Part shown: piece after piece, positions 20,988-22,727 of the stretch | Layout: each line of letters opens with the position of its first letter | Numbering within the stretch: position 1 is the stretch's first letter | NCBI GenBank assembly: GCA_022843175.1 | Contig: JALHOE010000071.1 | Span: forward strand, 1 to 39,389 | Length of the DNA: 39,389 nucleotides | Origin: Deltaproteobacteria bacterium | Lineage (GTDB): Bacteria > Myxococcota_A > Polyangia > Polyangiales > JADJMO01 | Direction: 5' to 3' | Notes under the pieces: model-generated | Databases searched by the model: none | What the model was told of the DNA's origin: nothing | What the model saw: the letters and a program-made list of their open reading frames with translations, nothing else | Program-made: the position numbers and the translations under genes

Positions 20988-22727
20988 ATGCCCAATCTCC
21001 TCGCGATGTCGTTCGAGGGCGAGCTCGCCCCCTCGTTCGATCTCCGCTGCCTCCATCCGAACCGCAAACCCCCGGATGGCTGGGGCATCGGCTACTACCC
21101 CGGCGGCGAGCCCAGCGCGTCGATCCTCAAAGAGCCCGCGCCGCCGCAGGGGAGCATCCGCTCCGAGCTGATCAAGGCGTGGGAGCACCTCGCGTCTTCG
21201 TTGTTCGTGCTCCACATCCGCACCGCGACGTGGGGACAGATCAGCGACGCCAACACCCAGCCGTTCCTCCGCAGCTACGCGGGCCGCGACTGGCTCTTCG
21301 CCCACTCCGGCAGCCTCGAGCACCGCGTCGAGCTGCCCGCGCCCACGCTGTTCACGCCGGTCGGGTCCACCGACACCGAGGCGATCTTCTGCGATCTCCT
21401 CGAGCGCTTCGCGCGCCGTGGTTGGGGCAGCATCGGCGAGGCCGAGCCCGAGGTGCTGCGGGAGTGGCTCGACGCGATCAACGCGCACGGCACCCTCACC
21501 ATCGTGCTCGCCGACGGCCGCGACCTGCTCGTCTACGCCGATCGCGGCGGCGCCCCGGAGCGTGGGATCTTCCTCTGCGAGATCTTGCCCCCGTACGAGG
21601 AGCTGATCATCTCCGACGACGACCTCGGCGTCGATCTCACCGGTCGCGGGGTCAAGAGCCGCAAGGGCGTCGTCATCGCGTCCAACCCGCTCGCGGGCAA
21701 CGAAGCGAAGTGGCGTCAGCTACAGCCCGGACACCTCGCGCTGATCCGACAGGGCTCGATCCGCGCGCACGTCGGCCCCGCGCCGGGCCCCGGCGTCACG
21801 CTCTCGCACCCGCCGCAGATCGTCCCGGTGGAGCTGCGGCTGCCCAAGCCCGCGCCGATCAAGAAGTTCACCATTCGTCACCGCACCGCCTACCGCTACG
21901 ACAAAGAGGTCGAGCGCAGCACCCACCTGCTCCGCATCACGCCCTACCACGACCGCCTTCAACGTTTGATCGCGTCCGAGGTCACGCTGTCGGTCACCGG
22001 TCAGTCGCGCGAGTTCGAGGACGTGTTCGGCAACCACGTGCGCCGGGTGCTCATCGACCAGCCGTTCCGCGAGCTCATCATCGAGGCCAACTCCACCGTC
22101 GAGGTGCTCGACACCGACCCGATGCACTTCGGCACGCTCCGCACGCGCTCCACCATTCCGCTCGTGTGGATGCCCTGGCAGCGCCAAGCGCTCCAACCCT
22201 ACCTGCTCCCGCCCGAGCTGCCCGAGACCGAGCTGCGCGAGCTCGTCGAGTACGCGATGAGCTTCGTCGAGCGCAACGACTACGACCTGCTCGACACGCT
22301 GCTCGATCTCAACGGCACCATCTACCGCGAATACAAGTACGTGCAGGGCGCCACCAACATCACCACGTCGCCGTTCGACGTGTACACCGAGCGCCGCGGC
22401 GTCTGTCAGGACTTCACCAACCTGTTCATCTGCCTCGCGCGTCTGCTCGGCGTGCCCGCGCGCTACACCTGCGGCTACGTCTACACCGGCCCGAAGCACC
22501 ACAACCAGGTGCAGTCCGAGGCGTCGCACGCGTGGGTGCAGGTCTACCTGCCCGAGGTCGGCTGGCGCGGCTTCGACCCGACCAACGGCATCATCACCCA
22601 GACCGATCACATCCGCGTCGCGGTCGGTCGCAACTACGTCGACGCCACCCCCACGAGCGGCACCATCTTCGTCGGCGGCGGCCGCGAGACCCTCGACGTC
22701 GACGTCCGCGTCGAGCCGCTCGACTAG
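20988..22727 (+). CDS. Class II glutamine-amidotransferase-like domain (catalytic Cys absent) fused to transglutaminase
   Basis: A 579-residue fusion. Residues 1-265 match YafJ-type class II amidotransferases: LLAMSFEGELAPSF, DGWGIGYYPGG (30-40), LHIRTATWG (75-83) and FAHSGSL (104-110). Family members normally begin Met-Cys, the Cys being the N-terminal nucleophile; here it is MPNLLA, and the oxyanion HNG is HSG. Residues 290-579 are a bacterial transglutaminase-like cysteine protease fold with its N-terminal domain (RHRTAYRYDKEVERSTHLLR) and an intact triad: Cys473 (RRGVCQDFTN), His514 (ASHAWVQVY) and Asp530 (RGFDPTNG). ATG 20988 is chosen; a GTG 24 bases upstream adds eight residues but no Cys. 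There is no signal peptide, so it is cytoplasmic. It probably works with the upstream amidoligase, ATP-grasp and alpha-E proteins. Confidence 0.9.
   Translation: MPNLLAMSFEGELAPSFDLRCLHPNRKPPDGWGIGYYPGGEPSASILKEPAPPQGSIRSELIKAWEHLASSLFVLHIRTATWGQISDANTQPFLRSYAGRDWLFAHSGSLEHRVELPAPTLFTPVGSTDTEAIFCDLLERFARRGWGSIGEAEPEVLREWLDAINAHGTLTIVLADGRDLLVYADRGGAPERGIFLCEILPPYEELIISDDDLGVDLTGRGVKSRKGVVIASNPLAGNEAKWRQLQPGHLALIRQGSIRAHVGPAPGPGVTLSHPPQIVPVELRLPKPAPIKKFTIRHRTAYRYDKEVERSTHLLRITPYHDRLQRLIASEVTLSVTGQSREFEDVFGNHVRRVLIDQPFRELIIEANSTVEVLDTDPMHFGTLRTRSTIPLVWMPWQRQALQPYLLPPELPETELRELVEYAMSFVERNDYDLLDTLLDLNGTIYREYKYVQGATNITTSPFDVYTERRGVCQDFTNLFICLARLLGVPARYTCGYVYTGPKHHNQVQSEASHAWVQVYLPEVGWRGFDPTNGIITQTDHIRVAVGRNYVDATPTSGTIFVGGGRETLDVDVRVEPLD

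Follow-up and report, generated by a model that had tools for sequence, protein, structure and literature searches.

What might a class II glutamine amidotransferase domain that lacks its catalytic cysteine be doing in the same polypeptide as an intact transglutaminase? This question is raised by a gene on the forward strand of a 39,389-nucleotide stretch of DNA from a Polyangiales deltaproteobacterium (contig JALHOE010000071.1 of assembly GCA_022843175.1; the whole stretch is called the window here). The gene spans positions 20988 to 22727 and, by translation and Pfam searches, encodes a fusion protein of 579 residues. Its translation from 20988, with MPNLLAMSF as the N-terminus, reads MPNLLAMSFEGELAPSFDLRCL...PDGWGIGYYP...HIRTATWG...NTQPF...FAHSGSL...VGSTDTEAIFC. 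Three Pfam domains are found in it: GATase_4 (PF13230, residues 1-261, 252.7 bits against a cut-off of 23), Bact_transglu_N (PF08379, residues 295-372, positions 21870-22103) and Transglut_core (PF01841, residues 436-531, 70.8 bits, positions 22293-22580, also matching the structure 3isr). Taking the Pfam match together with the structural evidence below, we delimit a pseudo-class-II-amidotransferase (Ntn) domain at 20988-21773 (residues 1-262), which is followed by a Pro-rich variable linker of low pairwise identity at 21774-21869. An earlier note, made from the window alone, had given the span as 20988-21790; the gene continues to 22727. The same note's claim of an intact transglutaminase holds: alignment identifies Cys473 (22404-22406), His514 (22527-22529) and Asp530 (22575-22577), all on the forward strand, as the triad characteristic of the Transglutaminase-like superfamily, and it is invariant in 28 aligned full-length sequences.

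Aligned with E. coli GlmS using hhalign, Met1-Pro2 of the fusion falls on Met-Cys, HIRTATWG on HTRWATHG, HSG on HNG and TDTE on TDTE. Hence, the codon at the position of the catalytic Cys1 of GlmS (20991-20993) is the proline codon CCC. The same alignment pairs R78 (21219-21221) with R73, S107-G108 (21306-21311) with N98-G99, and D129 (21372-21374) with D123. Following GlmS numbering and residue roles, which we take as established, Arg73 binds the carboxylate and Asp123 the amino group of glutamine. Thus, when set against an active class II amidotransferase, the domain has the fold and the Gln-binding Arg and Asp but lacks the N-terminal Cys and the oxyanion Asn.

As the window comes from a single-genome draft assembly in 470 contigs, one might suspect a sequencing error, a point mutation of one strain or a wrong start that masks a Cys. 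A scan with one genome per species recovered 28 close homologues, 60-70% identical, from Sorangium, Minicystis, Hyalangium, Anaeromyxobacter and other myxobacterial genomes as well as a few Gemmatimonadaceae and Thermoanaerobaculia MAGs. Every member of this first set starts with Met-Pro (29/29), and all but one, which is cut by a contig end (L030), are complete and fused (28/29). The enlarged set, here called clade A, comprises 41 genes encoding 40 distinct orthologues, one pair being identical. Pro2 is present in all 40 and is encoded by CCC in 19 genes, CCG in 19, CCA in two and CCT in one, after ATG in 35 genes, GTG in four and TTG in two. An in-frame start upstream of Met-Pro is absent in 28 of the 41 genes; the only one in the window, GTG at 20964, would add the Cys-free extension MLILFGRR. 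Because Pro2 is universal, is written with four different codons and mostly has no alternative start before it, we conclude that the N-terminus is real and that the proline is maintained by selection on the protein. With Met-Pro common to forty orthologues from many genera, an artefact of any of these kinds has a vanishingly small probability, and the orthologues rule out a sequencing error or a misannotated start.

These results bear directly on what the earlier note had claimed. Its observation that the DGWGIGYY and HIRTATWG motifs are kept with Met-Pro in place of Met-Cys is borne out by the translation, the GlmS alignment and the orthologues alike. It had also read HNG as changed to HSG: the loss of the Asn extends to all 40 orthologues, but the residue replacing it is Ser in 25, Ala in 11 and Gly in four, so that H[S/A/G]G rather than HSG is what is conserved. 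Of the two features whose conservation among fused homologues it had left to be established, Pro2 is thus invariant (40/40), whereas HSG varies at position 107. It had further foreseen that close homologues might carry Met-Cys and HNG, or that an upstream start might supply a Cys; instead, the close fused homologues carry the same change, and neither the GTG extension nor the many genes without any upstream start provides a cysteine. Since both the nucleophile and the oxyanion Asn are lost, as that note had argued and as Pro2 and the missing Asn107 now attest in 40 of 40 sequences, glutaminase activity of this domain is very improbable on sequence grounds. Neither the operon setting nor the sister clade described below figured in that note.

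Structure prediction is consistent with these alignments. An AlphaFold2 model of the amidotransferase domain built from 58 sequences has a pLDDT of 92.4 and a pTM of 0.91; the full-length model, from 28 close sequences, is poor (pLDDT 66). The top structural match of the domain model is 1te5 (Z 30.1, rmsd 2.2 over 242 residues), followed by EgtC, PurF and GlmS, and the structural matches listed are Ntn amidotransferases. The alignments to GlmS, PurF and AsnB begin with residue 2 of the model opposite residue 1 of each. In the model, therefore, Pro2 occupies the structural site of Cys1 in GlmS and PurF, and the superposition would have a processed Pro1 facing the pocket.

A conserved proline at this very site recalls a proposal of the earlier note, namely that the processed N-terminal Pro1 could itself be a catalytic base or nucleophile, as in tautomerases. 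On such a reading its secondary amine would act either on water, as a general base, or as the nucleophile of a novel Ntn chemistry. Met-Pro is a substrate of methionine aminopeptidase, and Pro2, as tautomerase-like chemistry would require, lies straight after the start codon in all 40 orthologues, through four codons, at the Ntn nucleophile site. The oxyanion Asn, however, is lost and only loosely replaced by Ser, Ala or Gly, no other new invariant acid or base was identified at the site, the fold matches Ntn amidotransferases, and no Ntn hydrolase is known to use proline. A further argument against it comes from a second fused clade. Our survey of 284 genomes of the home phylum found clade A in 13 genomes and this clade B (L087-L103) in 17; a contig end cuts the transglutaminase in two clade B members (L092 and L103), and one (L098) has a single in-frame stop. 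Clade B has Ser or Thr in place of the proline, and H[N/D/S/T]G. In L096, L101-L103 and L130 no start codon directly precedes this Ser or Thr, so that it is not N-terminal there, which also weakens the idea that clade B uses it as a substitute Ntn nucleophile. Beyond invariance and position, nothing speaks for a catalytic Pro1, and with a sister clade that dispenses with the proline we regard it as very unlikely; it is equally improbable that such chemistry would act on a glutamyl or carbonyl substrate in concert with the fused transglutaminase.

What the domain has kept points in a different direction. Of the positions conserved in 11 Cys-bearing YafJ-type relatives, 36 can be classed as either kept or lost in clade A, which keeps 25, among them H76, R78, G83, N89, T90, P92, F93, H106, G108, T128, D129 and E131; the 11 that it loses include the nucleophile Cys2 and the oxyanion Asn107. 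Within clade A, Arg78 and Gly108 are invariant and Asp129 is retained, its two apparent exceptions (L022 and L033) being misaligned rows with an insertion; the Asp is conserved in clade B too. The mean pairwise identity is 63% for the amidotransferase domain and 76% for the transglutaminase core as against 21% for the linker, suggesting from the sequences that the amidotransferase domain is constrained and not decaying. Moreover, a Cys-less pocket of this kind can, by analogy, still bind a ligand because the PDB entries 4zfl and 3ooj are titled as the EgtC C2A mutant with its natural substrate and the GlmS C1A mutant with glutamate, respectively.

The main rival to a ligand-binding role is a ligand-free scaffold: a purely structural domain that acts in oligomerisation, in docking or as a lid, and positions the transglutaminase in a complex of the operon products without a small-molecule ligand. 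Dead enzyme domains are often retained as scaffolds, and beta-lactam synthetase (1jgt/1m1z) keeps an Ntn amidotransferase-like domain without its Cys. The loss of Arg78 in some clade B members, 5 of 17 having another residue or a gap at the equivalent position, fits a scaffold as well, and on the aligned sequences it implies that glutamyl binding is not universal across the fused family. Such a scaffold would not, however, require clade A to conserve Arg78, Gly108 and Asp129, and we consider it rather unlikely. The retention of the Gln-binding Arg, Asp and Gly alongside the loss of the nucleophile and the oxyanion Asn is best fitted by the binding-domain alternative that the earlier note had also raised, as far as conservation can indicate. 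We accordingly prefer, as moderately probable, a fixed pseudoenzyme-enzyme fusion in which a dead but ligand-competent pseudo-glutaminase recognises Gln or gamma-glutamyl groups for the transglutaminase, or regulates it. Taken singly, the chances that the pocket still binds a glutamyl group are about even, and a functional coupling of the domain to the transglutaminase appears comparably balanced. A counterpoint to this preferred reading is that the invariance of Pro2 exceeds the needs of a mere binding domain.

We constructed a tree of 83 sequences in which clades A and B each form one group (SH-aLRT 99) and together form another, with a support of 94 that falls short of 95+; this joint group neighbours Cys-bearing YafJ-type proteins. 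In a tree of the transglutaminases a single change between the fused and unfused states suffices, and the closest unfused amidotransferases (L035, L064 and L161-L163) retain Met-Cys and HNG. The simplest history suggested by these sequence relationships is a single fusion event, during or around which the nucleophile disappeared. Among the fused proteins inspected in the genome contigs, the 284 home-phylum genomes, 38 relatives and the 200 and 247 genomes of two further phyla (those of L018 and L010, respectively), none was seen with an intact Met-Cys. The fusion is rare in those two phyla, being found in two of the 200 and one of the 247 genomes, which suggests that it spread outside the home phylum by transfer. 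Plasmid matches to the amidotransferase domain all fall below 60% identity with it (the best rows reach about 31%), and those with an annotation are labelled class II glutamine amidotransferases. Separately, apparently Cys-less class II amidotransferases that are unfused were noticed in the window's own genome (L004/L107, starting MARLFG, with HTG) and in L041 (amidotransferase-like, starting MTRLFG, with HMG).

The genomic context places the fusion in a predicted peptide-ligase operon. Upstream on the same strand lie a short DUF2126 amidoligase without a transglutaminase part (14546-16234; PF09899, 369 bits over residues 122-536), a circularly permuted ATP-grasp (16234-17718; PF14403, 547.6 bits) and an Alpha-E protein (17715-18722; PF04168, 244.5 bits), the sole copy in the genome. 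The order ATP-grasp, Alpha-E, amidotransferase-transglutaminase, with a gap of tens of bases, is repeated in most loci that are sufficiently long, and homologues of the short DUF2126 protein hold the same position in other loci. The ATP-grasp and Alpha-E genes are absent within the available stretch in L010, L017, L020, L026, L027, L028 and L032, of which L017 and L028 carry DUF2126 genes instead. Three genomes of the same order (L154-L156) have a comparable operon with an unfused transglutaminase of 297-341 residues. Elsewhere, a full transglutaminase-DUF2126 protein was seen side by side with a short DUF2126 paralogue. In the window a lipoprotein-like gene (about 18800-20907), which combines an Asp/Thr/Gly-rich repeat and a beta-helix domain, sits between Alpha-E and the fusion, where most related loci have the gap of only tens of bases. 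Directly upstream of the operon, a 1493-residue fusion of protein kinase, TPR, GAF and sigma-54 activator domains (10006-14487) is a possible regulator.

Under the preferred reading of a ligand-competent pseudo-glutaminase, a single event would have linked a YafJ/DUG3-type (GATase_4) glutaminase gene to the transglutaminase that belonged to an ATP-grasp/Alpha-E/DUF2126 peptide-ligase operon, and its nucleophile and oxyanion residue would have been lost at about the same time. The Ntn domain would no longer hydrolyse glutamine, but its pocket would still hold a glutamyl head group. The ligases of the operon would build a peptide or a glutamyl conjugate, whose Gln or gamma-glutamyl end the pocket might recognise, unless it reads free Gln or Glu as a signal. 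This recognition would direct or gate the fused Cys-His-Asp transglutaminase, which would cleave or transfer the adjoining amide.

The component families and the operon type are already known. The YafJ/PA-type class II amidotransferases (GATase_4, 1te5) share the whole-domain fold and the DGWG, HxR, NTxPF, HxG and TDxE motifs with the fusion, but their known members have Met-Cys and HNG, where the fusion has Met-Pro, H[SAG]G and an added transglutaminase. EgtC (4zfj/4zfk/4zfl; Z 22), the gamma-glutamyl amidohydrolase of ergothioneine biosynthesis, has the same Ntn fold and cleaves a gamma-glutamyl amide, but it has an active Cys that the fusion lacks, and the NCBIfam EgtC model TIGR03442 gives only 41.3 bits against a cut-off of 218.65. 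Beta-lactam synthetase is a fold match as well (Z 11.5), but is of the AsnB type with a synthetase and not a transglutaminase as the partner. Iyer et al. are said to have predicted, in 2009, a peptide-ligase system that combines a circularly permuted ATP-grasp, Alpha-E and a transglutaminase. The Rv2566-type proteins of M. tuberculosis (PMC2588565), which from their described architecture we infer to belong to the DUF2126 family, likewise tie a transglutaminase-fold domain to a carboxylate-amine ligase system; there, however, transglutaminase and ligase form one protein, whereas here the fusion partner of the transglutaminase is the pseudo-amidotransferase and the ligases are separate neighbours. 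The described Anbu operon comprises an ATP-grasp, an alphaE protein, a transglutaminase and the Ntn protein Anbu (PMC6376114, PMC5666114). It thus shares with the present operon the circularly permuted ATP-grasp, Alpha-E and transglutaminase (and DUF2126), plus an Ntn-fold protein, which there is Anbu and here the dead amidotransferase fused to the transglutaminase; the proteasome-fold profile PF00227 (proteasome, HslV, Anbu) has no match in the window's genome, which is 95% complete. The literature searched contained no description of a conserved Cys-to-Pro pseudo-glutaminase joined to a transglutaminase, and nothing turned up on GATase_4 combined with transglutaminase or on DUF2126; Iyer et al. 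2009 may mention the architecture.

With the transglutaminase in mind, the authors of the Anbu study drew attention to the fact that glutamine amidotransferases occur among the Ntn hydrolases (PMC6376114); in the present fusion an Ntn domain of just this kind, though dead, is physically joined to the transglutaminase of the operon. This suggests that the operon system recruited the Ntn fold a second way, as Anbu elsewhere and as a pseudo-glutaminase here. Published functional hypotheses on the ATP-grasp/Alpha-E/DUF2126 operon are described as experimentally unconfirmed (PMC6376114). If the reading that we prefer is true, a dead enzyme would here have become a fixed module for reading glutamyl groups on behalf of an active transglutaminase, and the fusion would offer a handle on this biochemically obscure operon.
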